A stretch of 30,559 nucleotides of DNA, taken from a virus. A program made the translations under genes and the position numbers. Shown one piece after another: positions 3,457 to 15,905 of the stretch. The notes under the pieces were generated by a model. It did no database searches. It saw nothing but the letters and a program-made list of their open reading frames with translations, and was not told the origin of the DNA. The stretch spans positions 1 to 30,559 of IMG/VR virus record IMGVR_UViG_3300033144_001010; one strand, given 5' to 3'. How positions within the stretch are numbered: the stretch's first letter is position 1; every line of letters starts with the position of its first letter.

Positions 3457-4035
3457 ATGGCACAAAAACAAAAGCATTTAGGGCCGATAGAAAGCCTTAC
3501 AGAAGACATGGCGGCAAAGTTAATAAGTAGAATCATCGTTAAGGACGGTGGTTTATTCCTCGCCGGTAAAGGCGGTGGTAAGCTGGAAGTTCTAGCACAG
3601 GGCAATGAAGGCCCTGAAGGTAGGCGTGGCCCTCGTGGTTACGCTGGTGAAATGGGTTCAATAGGTTTAACAGGCGACGCTGGCCCAATAGGGCCTCGTG
3701 GCACGAAAGGAGAAACAGGCAATGAAGGTAAACAAGGACAAGCAGGGCAAAGGGGACCGCAGGGCGAAGCGGGCAAAGATGCGAAGGGAGAACGAGGGAT
3801 TCCTGGTGCGAGCGGTGAAGCAGGTGAAAGAGGTAGAACAGGAGATAAAGGATGTGCAGGCAGTCAAGGTCCCAAAGGCGAAAGAGGCATCCAAGGTGAA
3901 ACCGGTCAAGCGGGCAAAGACGGAAAAAGTATTAAAGGCCCCCAAGGTGAAAAAGGCGAAAAAGGCGAAACAGGAATAGCACCAGCAGAGCTTTTATCAA
4001 TAATTAACAGACTAAAAGTATTGGAGGCAAAATAA
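3457..4035 (+). CDS. Collagen-like Gly-X-Y repeat protein
   Basis: A 192-residue protein with an N-terminal helical cap (about 1-48), a Gly-X-Y region from G49 to G173, and a C-terminal heptad-like segment (PAELLSIINRLKVLEAK) suited to trimerise the collagen helix. Glycine is at every third residue except for two breaks of the same type: GKDAKG (106-111) and GKSIKG (156-161). The Y positions are rich in charged residues and not in proline, as in other bacterial and phage collagens that lack prolyl hydroxylation. There is one cysteine at 133. Phage collagens usually sit in tail fibres; here the gene lies between terminase and portal, so a head fibre or surface decoration is possible. Confidence 0.9.
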   Translation: MAQKQKHLGPIESLTEDMAAKLISRIIVKDGGLFLAGKGGGKLEVLAQGNEGPEGRRGPRGYAGEMGSIGLTGDAGPIGPRGTKGETGNEGKQGQAGQRGPQGEAGKDAKGERGIPGASGEAGERGRTGDKGCAGSQGPKGERGIQGETGQAGKDGKSIKGPQGEKGEKGETGIAPAELLSIINRLKVLEAK

Positions 4036-9545: not shown

Positions 9546-10244
9546 ATGAAAAACAGATTCGGAAAAATTTCGTTAGTTGTTTTATTTACAGTTGTAATCT
9601 CCTTGCTTGCTCTTAATTTGATCGTTCTACCAATTTCAGCAACACCGATTCACAGCAATGAAACCACTAAACTTGGTTCATTTACTGGGCCAGTTGGCGG
9701 AACTGCTCAGGATGATAATGTTAAGGCTTCACTTGATTTAGCACATACTGACCTTGACACTATAGCTACAGCGGCTGCTCTTAATCAGGACTATCTTGAC
9801 AATACGACTTTAGTTGCCGGAAAAACCTATTCACTCCAAATAACTGGTGTTAATGTTGGAGACGAAGACCTGTTTTTAGTTGCTGGTGGACCAATCCTCA
9901 TTACGTCTCTTGTTGGTGAGGTTACGACTGTTTTTGACACTTCCGCTGCTACTTCTAAGATAATGATAGATGCGACATCTGGGCTGGATTACGACTTTTC
10001 AACTGCTGTAGATTTAACTGATGCTGTTGATGGTGGAAGGTTTGTTTTTACAAATGTTAATCCTTCTGTCTTAACACCATTGGGTTTAACTACCGCTGGT
10101 TCAGGTAATTTAATGGATCCTTGGTACTGTGTACCGGGTATGATTGAGGTGGTAGATTCTGACGATAATGATTCAACAGGGGCTACTACATGGAGTATAA
10201 CTTTTATTCCATTAACATCTGGTGTTACAGTAGTAGCACAATAG
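9546..10244 (+). CDS. Signal-peptide-bearing virion-region protein A
   Basis: AAAGGAG at 9531-9537 fixes the ATG. The 232-residue product starts with a basic n-region and a long hydrophobic segment (ISLVVLFTVVISLLALNLIVLPISA), either a signal peptide or a membrane anchor. The remainder is beta-rich. From about residue 85 onward it is homologous to the product of the next gene: both contain a VAGG.I.I.SL.GE.TT block, 'DATSGLDYDFSTAVDL' against 'DATDGSDYDREFSTTVDI', and a W-C-P-G-IE element near the end. No family recognised. It lies between capsid and tail genes and is followed by a strong terminator, so its role may be particle-associated or at the envelope. Confidence 0.75.
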   Translation: MKNRFGKISLVVLFTVVISLLALNLIVLPISATPIHSNETTKLGSFTGPVGGTAQDDNVKASLDLAHTDLDTIATAAALNQDYLDNTTLVAGKTYSLQITGVNVGDEDLFLVAGGPILITSLVGEVTTVFDTSAATSKIMIDATSGLDYDFSTAVDLTDAVDGGRFVFTNVNPSVLTPLGLTTAGSGNLMDPWYCVPGMIEVVDSDDNDSTGATTWSITFIPLTSGVTVVAQ

Positions 10245-10291: not shown

Positions 10292-10819
10292 ATGAAAAAG
10301 AATGCAGGTAAAATTACAGTTGCCGTATTGATTCTTATAGCTTGCATGATAGTTGCTTATGCGGTAACTCCCGCATTTGCTATTAAGAGATCATACGATC
10401 AAGACGTGCTTACCATTAAAATGACATCTACGTTGGCCGGAACAACTGACCAGATGTTTACTGTTGCGGGTGGCAGGATTGAGATAGTATCTTTATTTGG
10501 AGAGTGTACCACTGCTGCTGGCACACCTGGAAATACTTTGATTCAATTGGATGCAACTGATGGGTCTGACTATGATAGGGAGTTTTCTACAACAGTTGAC
10601 ATTGGTGCTTTGGGTGCAGGAGATGTAATAAGATTTAGCAATGCAATAGACGAGGGCGTTTTAGATATTACGGCAAACACTGGTGCTGGACAGACGCTAA
10701 GTTGGTTTTGTTCTCCAGGTGAAATAGAACTAAACACAACATCTGGTACAACCGGCGCAATTGTCTGGTATATGTCATATCGAAAAATAGAAGCAGAAGC
10801 AGTAGTAACAGCGAATTAG
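10292..10819 (+). CDS. Signal-peptide-bearing virion-region protein B (paralogue of A)
   Basis: I start at the ATG at 10292, which has AAGGA seven bases upstream; longer in-frame extensions would run back through the terminator. The 175-residue product has a classic signal peptide (KKNAGKITVAVLILIACMIV, with a likely AFA cleavage before IKRS). The mature part is the same domain as in the gene at 9546, pointing to a tandem duplication. It has two cysteines, one shared with its paralogue in the WxCxPG element. Function unknown; it is exported or membrane-tethered if the signal is used. Confidence 0.75.
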   Translation: MKKNAGKITVAVLILIACMIVAYAVTPAFAIKRSYDQDVLTIKMTSTLAGTTDQMFTVAGGRIEIVSLFGECTTAAGTPGNTLIQLDATDGSDYDREFSTTVDIGALGAGDVIRFSNAIDEGVLDITANTGAGQTLSWFCSPGEIELNTTSGTTGAIVWYMSYRKIEAEAVVTAN

Positions 10820-10828
10820 GAGCCTACC

Positions 10829-11608
10829 ATGAGTATGACCGATAATGCTGCAAACATAGCCGCGTGTAATCAAGCCTTGAATATGCTTGGAGCAGAGAAT
10901 ATAACCGTTGGAGCAACAACTGAGCAGAACTACGTCTATTGTGCATCAGTTTTTGATGATGCAAGAGATGAGATACTTGCCGCTGGGCGATGGAACTTTG
11001 CTATGAAACGTGGCTATGCACTAGAGACTACAACTCCGGTGTTCGGTTACGATGAAGCATTTACGAAGCCCACTGATTCAGTAAAGATATGGACTATTGC
11101 ACAACGACAGGATGCAAGATTTGCAGTTGAAACTACTTTGATTCTTACTGACGAGGGTGAGACTCCGGCAAGCTGGATGGCGGCTAAGGATTACGTTGCT
11201 GGTCAATATTTATCGTCAGATGATACTACAGCAGGAACAAACTTAACTTACCTTGTTGATACTGGATTTACTTCCACATCGACATCAGAGACTACCGACT
11301 TGTCTACCTATTGCACAGCACAGGCATCAAACCTATCAGTTCTTGAAGTTGAGTACGTCTATCAGCGTACAGACGTTGACGCATGGCCTGTAGCCCCAAG
11401 GCAGTGTTTAATCATCAACCTTGCCCGAATGCTCGCCCCTTCAATTAAACAGAACGAGGAGGGTGCTGTGGCTTTTCAGCAGATGCTATACGGCAGTAGT
11501 AAGGTCACAGGATATCTTAATATAGCATTATCGCAAGATGCCCAAGAAGGTGGAATAATGACTGTAGCTACTAATACGCTTATGAACTCACGCAGGAGCC
11601 GTAGATGA
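10829..11608 (+). CDS. Tail adaptor protein, T7 gp11-like (tail tubular protein A)
   Basis: 259 residues against about 196 for T7 gp11. The N-terminus has the adaptor signature: CNQALNMLGAENITV, then CASVFDDARDEILAAGRWNFAMKRGY ('yd..rd.lL....W.fA..r..L'). The C-terminal half has LEVEYVYQRTDVDAWP followed by a helical INLARMLAPSI block. Between them (about 108-165) lies an extra segment of the type SWMAAKDYVAGQYLSSDD plus a Tyr strand and a Ser/Thr-rich tract, resembling small carbohydrate-binding-like inserts. It links the portal to the nozzle. Ribosome binding site AGGAG; ATGA overlap with the nozzle gene. Confidence 0.88.
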   Translation: MSMTDNAANIAACNQALNMLGAENITVGATTEQNYVYCASVFDDARDEILAAGRWNFAMKRGYALETTTPVFGYDEAFTKPTDSVKIWTIAQRQDARFAVETTLILTDEGETPASWMAAKDYVAGQYLSSDDTTAGTNLTYLVDTGFTSTSTSETTDLSTYCTAQASNLSVLEVEYVYQRTDVDAWPVAPRQCLIINLARMLAPSIKQNEEGAVAFQQMLYGSSKVTGYLNIALSQDAQEGGIMTVATNTLMNSRRSRR

Positions 11609-14600
11609 AAAGATTCTTAATTCTATTATTATTATGTTCAGTTGCTTTTGCTGAGAATCCATACAGGATTTTGAGCAACTTCAATGCGGGTGAATTGTAT
11701 CTTCTAAATGCAAGAGAAGATTTAGCAAAGTATCATTCCGGTTGCTCGATAATGGAGAATTTTATTCCAATGCCACAGGGTGGTGCAACTAAAAGACCAG
11801 GTACTAAATATATTGCGGAAGTAAAAACATCATCTTTGGCGACACGTTTAATACCTTTTGAGTACTCTACGGAGCAGTCTTATGTAATAGAAGCTGGCAA
11901 TCAGTATTTCAGGTTCTTTACTGATGGTGCTGCGGTTTTAACAGGTGATGGTACGGAAGATTTATCTACCTTGAATAATATAGTGGCACATTGGACTCTG
12001 AATGATAATGCTTCATCTGATACTGTTATTGACGATGATGACGATACACATCCGGGAACCTTGAAAACAGGTAATACCGAGGATGTTCACAGCGAAGGTA
12101 AGGTAGGTTCGGGGAGTTTAGACTTAGACGGTACTTATGCAGTTGAAATTGATAGTGATGCAGCCACTCTTAGTTTTACCGACGACAGTAAGGACGAGCC
12201 ATTTAGTATTGTTGGTTGGATTTTTATAAAAGATGGTGCAAGAAATCAGACTATTTTATCTAAGTGGCAGGCAGCGACTTTAAGAGAATGGAAATTTCTT
12301 GTTGATATAGATAGGAAAATGAGTTTTTATTTATGTGATGATTCTACGCAATTAGGCTCTGATCTTGTTGCCCAATGGAAGATGAATGAAAACGCGGCAT
12401 CTACAGCAGTTGATAATGCGGAGGGAACAGCTGGGTTTGATGGTGTTGCGTCAGCAAATACTACTAATTTACATGCGGCGGGCAAGGTTGGCAGTGGTTC
12501 TTTCGATTTGGACAGTCAATACTATGTAACAGTTTCAGATGCAGATGCTCTTAGTTTTGGGAATGGAACAGTAGATAGTCCATTCAGTGTAGGTGCTTGG
12601 GTTTATGTAACTAGTTCAGCAACCGAGCAACAGATAATCACGAAATATGATGGAACAACTGGCGCCGAAGATAGGGAGTGGCGTCTTTTTCTTGATGGAG
12701 AGGAAAAACTTATATTATATCTTGTTGATGAAAGCGCAAACGTTGGTATAGGTAAAACGAGTGATACTGGTCTCAGTGAGGGCTGGCATTTTGTAGCCGC
12801 GACATATACAGGTCAATCTACCACGGGGACAACTGCGGCTAACCTAATAACTTTGTATGTTGATGGTTCTCCGATCGCCGCAACTGCACAAAATAGTGGA
12901 AGTTATGATGCAATGGAGGCTGGCGCTTCGGATGTTATCATTGGTACTCTTACTCACACTGATGGTAATGTTGGTGCTATATTTCAGGATAAAATTGACA
13001 ATGTGATGCTTTACAGTACAGAATTAACCGCAATCCAGATTTCAAATCTTTATAATAATGGAATTGGAACAGAAGATTTAGATGCCGGTTTTCCGTATGC
13101 AATTACACAAGATGCCTTATCCAGTGGTTGGCATTTTGTAGCAGCGACTTATAGCGGAACACAATCAATAGCCGGAAAAGGTGAAGATGCTGCTGATGAT
13201 ATAATCTTATATGTTGATGGTGAAGCAGCTGGAATAAATGTATATAATGAAGACAATTACGATGCTATGGAAGATACTACAATTAAGGTTGTAATTGGTG
13301 GCCAATACGATTCGGCGGGTACTCTAGCAAATTTTCCCAGTAATAAACTTGATAATATAGCTTTGTTTAGCGATGTTTTAACTCCAACTGAAATTGATTC
13401 TTTGTATACTATTTCTGTTAGTGAATTAGAAACTCCATACCTTACTGCTGATTTATTTGAATTGAAATATGAACAATCTGCTGATGTTCTTTATATTACT
13501 CATCCTGATTATGAGACGCGGAAACTATCCAGGCAAACTAATAATGATTGGGAATTTAAATCTATTGCTATTGAAACTGGCCCATTTAGAACACAAAATA
13601 ATGATATTACGAAAACACTTTCCGCTTCGGCAACAACTGGGACGGTAACATTGACTGCTTCGGGCCATGCACCGTTTATAGCGAGTACAACTGCTGGCCA
13701 TTTGCCAAGTGGTTCTACTTCAACTTCTAAATCCCAGACAGGTGCATTATTTCAGCTCGTACATCCATTAGATGATTTATCATTTTCCGATACGCTTGAA
13801 GACGATTACGCTGCTAGTCAGACCGAGGGTGTTAGTTGGATGGATTGCGGAACACTTTATAAGGGTGCTGAATGGACGTGGGTCACTGATGGCACGTGGT
13901 TAGGTACAGTTGAGATCCAGAGAAACTACACTATTGGAGCCGCACACGATGCAGATGGATGGGAGACTGTATTCCCATACGACGGTGTTACAACTGCAAG
14001 AAACGTTTCTACTACAGGTACAGAGGAAGATGGTGATGCTGATTACAGAGTGATATTTACAGATGACACAAGCGGCACGGTTATTTCATATTTCACAACT
14101 GACCAGACCGAGGTTATTGGTATTGTGGAGATTACATCAGTTGAAAGCAAAACATCTGCAACTGGAACGGTTATCCAAACTTTAGGTTCTACGGATGCCA
14201 CATATAAATGGTCAGAAGGTGCATGGAGCAACTATAGAGGCTGGCCACAAACAGTAACCTTTTTTGAAGATCGGTTGTGTTTCGGAGGTAATACATCACA
14301 GCCAGATACAATATGGGCCTCTGTAACTTCGGATTATGAGAATATGGAGGCGGGAGTAGATGATGACGATGCCCTTTTGCTTACTCTATCATCTAGGCAA
14401 GTCAACGTAATAGAATGGCTGATAGGCAAAGATAAGCTTCTAATTGGAACCTCTGGGGCAGAATGGACAATAGCAGGTGGAACAGATGAACCTTTGACTC
14501 CGTCCAACGTGTTAGCCAAACAGCACTCAACATATGGTAGTGCGAACCTGCAAGCAACATTGGCTAATGAAAGTGTTTTGTTTTTCCAGAGAGGTAAAGA

Positions 14601-15477
14601 GAAGATGAGAGAACTTGCTTATAACTGGGAGCTTGATTCTTATGTTGCACCAGATATGACCATTTTATCTAACTTAATAACCGATAGTGGAATAGATGAT
14701 GTAGCATTTCAAAAGACACCGGACTCGATTTTGTGGTGTGTCAGGAACGATGGAGAATTGCCGGTATTTTCATATGAGAGAAATGAGAATATAACTGCAT
14801 GGTCAAGAATGGTCACACAGACAAACCAGGCTGGAACTCTAACTGACTCTGACTTTGAATCTGTAGCAAGAATACATGGCGACCCAGAAGATGAGGTTTG
14901 GGTTATAGTTGAACGAACAATAGACAGTTCCGTTGTAAGATACATAGAGCAATTCCAGCCAAGAGACTTCGGTGACGATGAGGATGCTTTCTTTGTAGAC
15001 TGTGGAATTACTTACGATTCAACTGCCTCATCTGCAATGACAGGATTAGACCACTTAGAGGGTGAGACTGTATATGTCTTAGCTGACGGTGTTATGTTTG
15101 ATACCGCCATTGTTAGTGGCGGCGCGATAACACTTAAATCAGGTGGTACTACTACCACGGCATCTACGGTTCAGATAGGACTTGGCTACGAAGCACACAT
15201 GAGAACAATGCCATTGAGTTGGGTTGGTGGTACAACAATACACGGAAAGCAAAAGAGAATAAGCGAAGTAATATCAGAATGGAATAAAAGCGGAGACTTC
15301 TCTATTGGCAAAGATGCTGATACCCTACAGGCATACAGTATTGACGGTCAGACTACCGATATTGATAGGAAGACGTTTCCAGCGGGTTGGGATAGAAATG
15401 GATATGTGTATATTTACCAACAGTCACCTGAGCCCTTAACCTTACTGTCAATTATGACGGAGTTCAATATTAATTAA
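11605..15477 (+). CDS. Tail nozzle protein, T7 gp12-like, with signal peptide and nested LamG domains
   Basis: 1290 residues; T7 gp12 has about 794. The core nozzle begins at about residue 20 (ILSNFNAGELYLLNAREDL, then ENFIPMPQGGATKRPGTKYI) and resumes at 607 (LETPYLTADLFELKYEQSAD, then VLYITHPDYETRKLSR). It continues through GWPQTVTFFEDRLCFGGN and FFQRGKEKMRELAYNWELDSY. Residues 1-16 form a secretion signal (MKRFLILLLLCSVAFA, cleavage before ENPY). No other start lies before the core, and an AGGAG precedes this ATG. Residues about 126-600 are two LamG-type lectin folds. The first half of one (126-250) is interrupted by a complete second (254-485), then finishes (495-600). It forms the tail tip and DNA gate; LamG domains probably bind surface glycans. 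Confidence 0.9.
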   Translation: MKRFLILLLLCSVAFAENPYRILSNFNAGELYLLNAREDLAKYHSGCSIMENFIPMPQGGATKRPGTKYIAEVKTSSLATRLIPFEYSTEQSYVIEAGNQYFRFFTDGAAVLTGDGTEDLSTLNNIVAHWTLNDNASSDTVIDDDDDTHPGTLKTGNTEDVHSEGKVGSGSLDLDGTYAVEIDSDAATLSFTDDSKDEPFSIVGWIFIKDGARNQTILSKWQAATLREWKFLVDIDRKMSFYLCDDSTQLGSDLVAQWKMNENAASTAVDNAEGTAGFDGVASANTTNLHAAGKVGSGSFDLDSQYYVTVSDADALSFGNGTVDSPFSVGAWVYVTSSATEQQIITKYDGTTGAEDREWRLFLDGEEKLILYLVDESANVGIGKTSDTGLSEGWHFVAATYTGQSTTGTTAANLITLYVDGSPIAATAQNSGSYDAMEAGASDVIIGTLTHTDGNVGAIFQDKIDNVMLYSTELTAIQISNLYNNGIGTEDLDAGFPYAITQDALSSGWHFVAATYSGTQSIAGKGEDAADDIILYVDGEAAGINVYNEDNYDAMEDTTIKVVIGGQYDSAGTLANFPSNKLDNIALFSDVLTPTEIDSLYTISVSELETPYLTADLFELKYEQSADVLYITHPDYETRKLSRQTNNDWEFKSIAIETGPFRTQNNDITKTLSASATTGTVTLTASGHAPFIASTTAGHLPSGSTSTSKSQTGALFQLVHPLDDLSFSDTLEDDYAASQTEGVSWMDCGTLYKGAEWTWVTDGTWLGTVEIQRNYTIGAAHDADGWETVFPYDGVTTARNVSTTGTEEDGDADYRVIFTDDTSGTVISYFTTDQTEVIGIVEITSVESKTSATGTVIQTLGSTDATYKWSEGAWSNYRGWPQTVTFFEDRLCFGGNTSQPDTIWASVTSDYENMEAGVDDDDALLLTLSSRQVNVIEWLIGKDKLLIGTSGAEWTIAGGTDEPLTPSNVLAKQHSTYGSANLQATLANESVLFFQRGKEKMRELAYNWELDSYVAPDMTILSNLITDSGIDDVAFQKTPDSILWCVRNDGELPVFSYERNENITAWSRMVTQTNQAGTLTDSDFESVARIHGDPEDEVWVIVERTIDSSVVRYIEQFQPRDFGDDEDAFFVDCGITYDSTASSAMTGLDHLEGETVYVLADGVMFDTAIVSGGAITLKSGGTTTTASTVQIGLGYEAHMRTMPLSWVGGTTIHGKQKRISEVISEWNKSGDFSIGKDADTLQAYSIDGQTTDIDRKTFPAGWDRNGYVYIYQQSPEPLTLLSIMTEFNIN
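12781..12808 (+). repeat. In-frame near-direct repeat within LamG region, copy 1
   Basis: Encodes GWHFVAATY of the inner LamG domain. It matches 25 of 28 bases with 13126-13153, 345 bases (115 codons) downstream, supporting an origin of the inner domain by duplication of the outer one. Confidence 0.85.
13126..13153 (+). repeat. In-frame near-direct repeat within LamG region, copy 2
   Basis: Encodes GWHFVAATY of the resumed outer LamG domain. It differs from the copy at 12781-12808 at three positions. Confidence 0.85.
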
Positions 15478-15905
15478 TGTATGTACAACCATTTAAAAAA
15501 GAAGACTTCTTAGCATTTGAGCCAATAGAGCCTATGGCAAAGGCCGAGATAAAGGATATGGAATTTGCTCAGGCAATAGAGGATTCTGGTCTGGCGATTT
15601 CTGCTGTGAGAGATGGCAAGATTGTAGCTTGTGGTGGGGTTCATCCATCTCTTCAGAATGGTCACGGTGAGCTGTGGCTAAGATTAAGCGAAACCTGTCT
15701 TGAACATAAATTAGAAACAATGAGATGGCTTGTAGATGGATTAAAAATCATTGAAGAAACATATCCATTCACCCAACTAAACGCAGTAATTAGATGCTGT
15801 TTTAACAAGAGCATGTCATTAGTAGAATATTTAGGTTTCAAAAGGACTCAGAGTATCATGTATAAAGACGAACAATGGGCGATATATTCTAAGAGGATTC
15901 AATAA
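15477..15905 (+). CDS. GNAT-fold virion protein, T7 gp13-like
   Basis: 142 residues (T7 gp13 is about 138), starting in a TAATG overlap with the nozzle gene and ending in another with the gp14-like gene. The strand-helix order is GNAT-like: LAISAVRDGKIVACGGVHPS, then GELWLRLSETCLEHKLETMR, then helix, then VIRCCFNKSMSLVEYLGFKRTQ, equivalent to the 'N..a.rl.eklGF' acetyl-CoA-fold region. Proteins of this kind sit between gp12 and gp14 homologues and are needed for particle assembly. Whether this one is an active acetyltransferase is unknown; the usual acetyl-CoA pyrophosphate loop is not obvious. Confidence 0.75.
   Translation: MYVQPFKKEDFLAFEPIEPMAKAEIKDMEFAQAIEDSGLAISAVRDGKIVACGGVHPSLQNGHGELWLRLSETCLEHKLETMRWLVDGLKIIEETYPFTQLNAVIRCCFNKSMSLVEYLGFKRTQSIMYKDEQWAIYSKRIQ

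Follow-up and report, generated by a model that had tools for sequence, protein, structure and literature searches.

The nozzle gene and its insertion site

The window, by which we mean the whole stretch of 30,559 bases analysed here, is the record of an uncultured virus with a podophage-like gene order (terminase, portal, capsid, adaptor, nozzle). The protein encoded by the last gene of this series, the features of which are collected in Table 1, matches the phrog_376 profile at 3e-182 across aa 23-1290 and the nozzle of Carin-1 (PDB 8ck1) at 1e-103, and homologues are also found in Pelagibacter and epsilon15-type phages. The upstream gene on the adaptor side (10829-11608) matches phrog_394, a tail protein (3e-25), the nozzle gene following that of the adaptor (tail tubular A). 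Judged by its sequence, the gene is therefore a podophage tail nozzle of the phrog_376 family and a homologue of the Carin-1 nozzle. In T7-like phages, nozzles are hexamers that form the end of the tail, with a platform, a fibre dock, a beta-propeller and a tip (PMC10575957).

The nozzle of Carin-1, a Cobetia phage, belongs to the same protein family across both core parts but, unlike that of the window, is without an insert, and in the alignment the flanks of the window's insert meet at its residues 108 and 111. In many nozzles this site spans only about seven residues, and the insert measures about 250 residues in nozzles with a single LamG and about 490 in those with two nested ones. Pelagibacter phages (HTVC203P, HTVC010P) and epsilon15-type phages share the homologous core and the same site, but present either no insert or, in HTVC010P, an 80-aa E1_FCCH module where the window has nested LamGs. 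E1_FCCH is also found there in L150, and a CBM_5_12 module in L139. A single nozzle loop, equivalent to that between Carin-1 residues 108 and 111, may hence accept extra modules.

A LamG domain interrupted by a second LamG domain

A preliminary description of this locus had proposed that the nozzle harbors a LamG domain nested in another. All the motifs that it named lie in a single open frame and where it had placed them: IVAHW at 11980 and FYLCDDSTQLGSD at 12325-12363 in the outer N half (N1), LVAQWKMNENAAS at 12364-12402 and QISNLYNNG (ending at 13062) in the inner LamG, and SSGWHFVAATYSG at 13120-13158 and EIDSLY (ending at 13407) in the outer C half (C1), with ETPYLTADLF starting at 13429, after the end of the outer LamG. 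The nesting itself is borne out by a profile of 225 columns, built from nozzles with one LamG, which matches the block in the order 1-123, 2-225 and 127-225, and by homologues without one or both LamGs. Both outer halves are matched by this profile (121 and 89 bits), and the best of 500 shuffled blocks reaches 10.5 bits, against 89-244 for the real segments. In a comparison of the halves, N1 matches the inner N half, N2 (38% identity, E 3e-31), and C1 matches the inner C half, C2 (42%, E 7e-22), with no match between N and C halves.

Table 1. Location of the nozzle gene and of the parts of its LamG block in the window.
Feature	Coordinates	Strand	Evidence
Tail nozzle (tail tubular protein B) gene, 1290 aa	11605..15477	+	phrog_376; PDB 8ck1; phage homologues
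Nozzle core before insert (aa 19-118)	11659..11958	+	aa 23-116 align with Carin-1 nozzle residues 14-108
Outer LamG, N half, N1 (aa 125-249)	11977..12351	+	Single-LamG profile columns 1-123, 121 bits
Inner complete LamG (aa 254-483)	12364..13053	+	Columns 2-225, 244 bits; Laminin_G_3 1.8e-14; AF2 region Z about 20
Near-repeat copy 1, encodes GWHFVAATY of inner LamG	12781..12808	+	
Linker NNGIGTEDLDAGFP (aa 484-497), inner LamG to outer C half	13054..13095	+	Gap between profile matches
Outer LamG, C half, C1 (aa 498-601)	13096..13407	+	Columns 127-225, 89 bits; Laminin_G_3 positions 77-150, 8e-8
Near-repeat copy 2 (25/28), encodes GWHFVAATY of outer LamG	13126..13153	+	
Nozzle core after insert (aa 607-1290)	13423..15474	+	Restarts at Carin-1 nozzle residue 111

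The Pfam model Laminin_G_3 (PF13385, cut-off 27.6 bits) scores 54.5 bits on the inner domain (positions 5-151) and 33 bits on the outer LamG, where it matches the C half only (profile positions 77-150). With the whole 1290-aa protein as query, Pfam returned nothing even at E 1, which is a false negative, since the block alone gives 4e-21. An assembly artefact or a frameshift is ruled out by the one open frame and by the recurrence of this architecture across twelve distinct nozzles. On this sequence evidence, the window nozzle carries a LamG with a second complete LamG inserted in one of its loops.

Relatives with no LamG, one LamG or a nest

Relatives were gathered from viral contigs and cultured phages, and profiles of each half were scanned against all their reading frames; an alignment of nested and single blocks together (MAFFT) spread the single ones over both copies and was left out of the analysis. 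The complete N-N-C-C order is shared by the window and eleven other distinct nozzles, besides near-copies and partial contigs, and the order N-C, that is, a single LamG, occurs in nine. The competing arrangement envisaged beforehand, two LamGs in tandem (N-C-N-C), occurred in no reading frame of the collected relatives and is ruled out on that account. In all twelve nested nozzles the outer LamG is broken within columns 121-129 of the single-LamG profile: in each protein its N half ends at columns 121-126 and its C half starts at columns 121-129, with a complete inner LamG between the two.

Nozzles with zero and with one LamG, a search for which had been suggested, were both recovered at the same site, in agreement with the earlier claim that the block is inserted in the nozzle core. 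Relatives with no LamG, with one LamG (its halves joined) and with the nest thus make up a series at a single site of the nozzle, and this natural series offers material for the study of how proteins tolerate insertions within insertions. No nested LamG nozzle was found among the cultured phages, in which the sole LamG match is weak (Winogradskyella phage, E 8e-4), and the genome contigs yielded one relative, in a Planctomycetota bin, which is possibly a viral contig inside the bin. Since at least eleven other viruses have the nest as well, the arrangement can be regarded as genuine and old, and as a module that is exchanged.

Some relatives depart from this scheme. In a nozzle on a Planctomycetota-binned contig (L165, 3180-7091), the LamG is broken at another of its loops, the intruding LamG (Pfam 1.7e-19) being unrelated. 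The nozzle at 4438-7683 of L123 has a single LamG with an insert of roughly 150 aa in its C half, for which only a weak discoidin match below the cut-off was obtained (F5_F8_type_C, E 0.003). The nozzle at 3964-8082 of L127 (the same contig as L013) contains about 75 additional inserted residues within its inner LamG, that is, a third level of nesting.

Age and probable exchange of the nest

The 25/28 near-repeat had been read as a sign of recent duplication. The repeat is present and encodes the conserved LamG motif GWHFVAATY, but the recent date does not hold: the nest is already carried by homologues only 39-50% identical, and the mean identity between inner and outer LamGs is 0.37 inside a protein versus 0.36 between proteins. 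Since inner and outer copies are no closer within a protein than between proteins, a recent duplication is ruled out and the event must be old. In the window, the inner LamG shows an identity of 0.53 to the inner LamG of another virus, against 0.42 to its own outer one.

In the tree of the nozzle core, nested forms are interspersed among single ones, with eight changes for the twelve nested rows, at least seven of them forced, and a single clade of nested forms is rejected (p-AU 2e-8; 2e-4 within the main clade). The LamG trees, which are weakly supported, do not reject one outer and one inner clade (p 0.55 and 0.78). Because nested and single forms are scattered on the core tree, the cassette appears to have been exchanged or lost often. 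The LamG block is 43-50% identical where the nozzle core reaches 86%; the window and L059 share 86% of their flanks but 43% of the outer LamG, whereas L128 and L059 are 78/79% identical in the outer halves and 67/64% in the flanks. These contrasts fit an exchange of the cassette, the nest having presumably arisen once or very few times and having since been passed between nozzle backbones through recombination.

The changes forced by the core tree might also mean that, instead of exchanging a ready-made cassette, the individual lineages gained or lost the inner LamG repeatedly and independently. The second, unrelated LamG-in-LamG at another loop in L165 and the nozzle L135, the inner and outer LamGs of which are each other's closest, would agree with such a history, but we consider it rather improbable given the identical split site in all twelve nested nozzles, the greater likeness of nested outer LamGs to one another (0.46) than to single ones (0.39) and the outer halves that L128 and L059 have in common across more divergent flanks.

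A putative adhesive role at the tail

The choice of host by short-tailed phages is commonly ascribed to fibres and spikes; a nozzle loop that has repeatedly gained and swapped lectin-like modules, with one placed inside another of like fold, suggests a second site of adhesion on the tail. The sequence anatomy, the invariant split site, the modular series and the decoupled evolution are matters of observation; from them it seems fairly probable that the nozzle loop displays swappable, recursively nested lectin-like modules that would face outward on the particle and serve in host-surface binding, with a putative part in host range. Each nozzle subunit would display two LamGs outward, about twelve per tail if there are six subunits as in T7-like phages, and these may act, beside the tail fibres, as multivalent adhesins of low affinity that bind glycans of the host surface or envelope components. 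A location of the LamGs at the tail tip is plausible. Surface adhesion is their most likely role because of their fast divergence, their replacement by other modules, one of which is carbohydrate-binding, and their lectin-type fold.

A LamG-type fold alone says nothing of function, and the domains could instead be structural, stabilizing the nozzle hexamer or binding fibres or decoration proteins without host contact. This we judge unlikely, given that they diverge fast against a conserved core and are frequently replaced, that L139 bears its CBM_5_12 module at the very same site and that many nozzles manage without any module there. A precedent for the adhesive reading comes from Vibrio phage OWB, the TTPB of which is reported to bind a host membrane protein on which adsorption depends and, when added beforehand, to inhibit adsorption (PMC7241545). 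The likeness is one of description, both being the same kind of tail protein; the OWB receptor is a protein, and the available portion of that report does not mention LamG (PMC7241545).

The deeper nests lend themselves to a broader but less secure proposal, for which the balance is close to even: the podophage nozzle loop may be a recursive display site, in which modules sit within modules and whole nests are swapped between lineages, changing host-surface binding. Under this proposal L127 would represent the series nozzle, LamG, LamG, small beta domain, while L165 (a LamG holding another LamG at a different loop) and L123 (a LamG holding a discoidin-like domain) would represent further ones.

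Neither add-on modules on the structural proteins of phages nor phage-borne LamG domains are new kinds of feature. Ig-like domains, for instance, are scattered in phage structural proteins as swappable add-on modules on virion proteins; their fold differs from that of LamG, and they are not known to be nested within one another. The window's domains resemble LamG/Laminin_G_3 (PF13385) and CBM40-type lectin domains in sequence profile and predicted fold, but differ from ordinary ones in that one copy is interrupted by a second with the same fold. In the literature searched, coverage of which was incomplete, we found neither a LamG that sits at a conserved turn of another LamG and is exchanged between nozzles nor anything relevant on LamG with nozzles or with domain insertion.

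The separated outer halves as a probable single unit

Structure prediction had been named as a check on the split fold. In the AF2 model of the nested block (13 sequences; pLDDT 80, pTM only 0.59), the strands of the outer halves repeat the strand order of the inner LamG and of a single-LamG model, the insert being located at a hairpin turn of the outer LamG. The modelled inner domain is a jelly-roll that matches solved LamG-type domains along its whole length (5ho2, Z 20.3, rmsd 2.7 over 193 residues). It alone is listed in the PDB comparison of the nested model, many rows of which are receptor-binding parts of clostridial toxins; these matches reflect a common jelly-roll fold, and no functional relation is claimed. 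The single-LamG homologue L026, a natural empty site, folds separately as one domain with most of its core at pLDDT 80-94, both halves contributing to a match with CBM40 and NanC lectin domains (Z about 18); the likeness to CBM40 is one of fold only.

The identities of N1 and C1 run in parallel (43/43, 78/79, 62/63 and 60/59%, agreeing within 5 points in eight nested pairs), and those of the inner halves do not follow. Given the core, distances show a partial correlation of 0.65 for N1-C1, a value reached in 0/2000 permutations, against 0.31 for N2-C2, 0.42 for N1-C2 and 0.10 for N2-C1. Since N1 and C1 diverge in step, the separated halves behave as one unit, and the models suggest that they pack as one fold. 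A strand-swapped or crossed arrangement, in which N1 pairs with C2 and N2 with C1 or halves are swapped between neighbouring nozzle subunits, could draw on the N1-C2 correlation but is very improbable, as N1 tracks C1 best and to within 5 points, N2-C1 is near zero and the inner LamG matches solved domains over its full length by itself. In the favored arrangement, the turn of the outer LamG after strand KMSFYLC and before the strand that precedes GWHFVAATY would hold the second complete LamG, with N1 and C1 folded together as one jelly-roll from which the inner LamG stands off.

Other features of the contig

The nozzle begins with a signal-peptide-like stretch, MKRFLILLLLCSVAFA (11605-11652), which is odd in a virion protein. 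This start is kept in the main LamG clade and in its near relatives L139, L134 and L141, and is missing in all other nozzles examined, the LamG-bearing L026 and L130 included. Signal-like hydrophobic starts are also seen on two genes between capsid and adaptor (9546-10244 and about 10292-10819), neither of which has a match in NCBIfam. Close to the terminase gene, positions 3457-4035 encode a 192-aa protein with collagen-like G-x-y repeats. A small gene 3' of the nozzle (15477-15905) matches phrog_4177 and phrog_308; in Pelagibacter phages and epsilon15, the gene at the position after the nozzle is annotated as an acetyltransferase.
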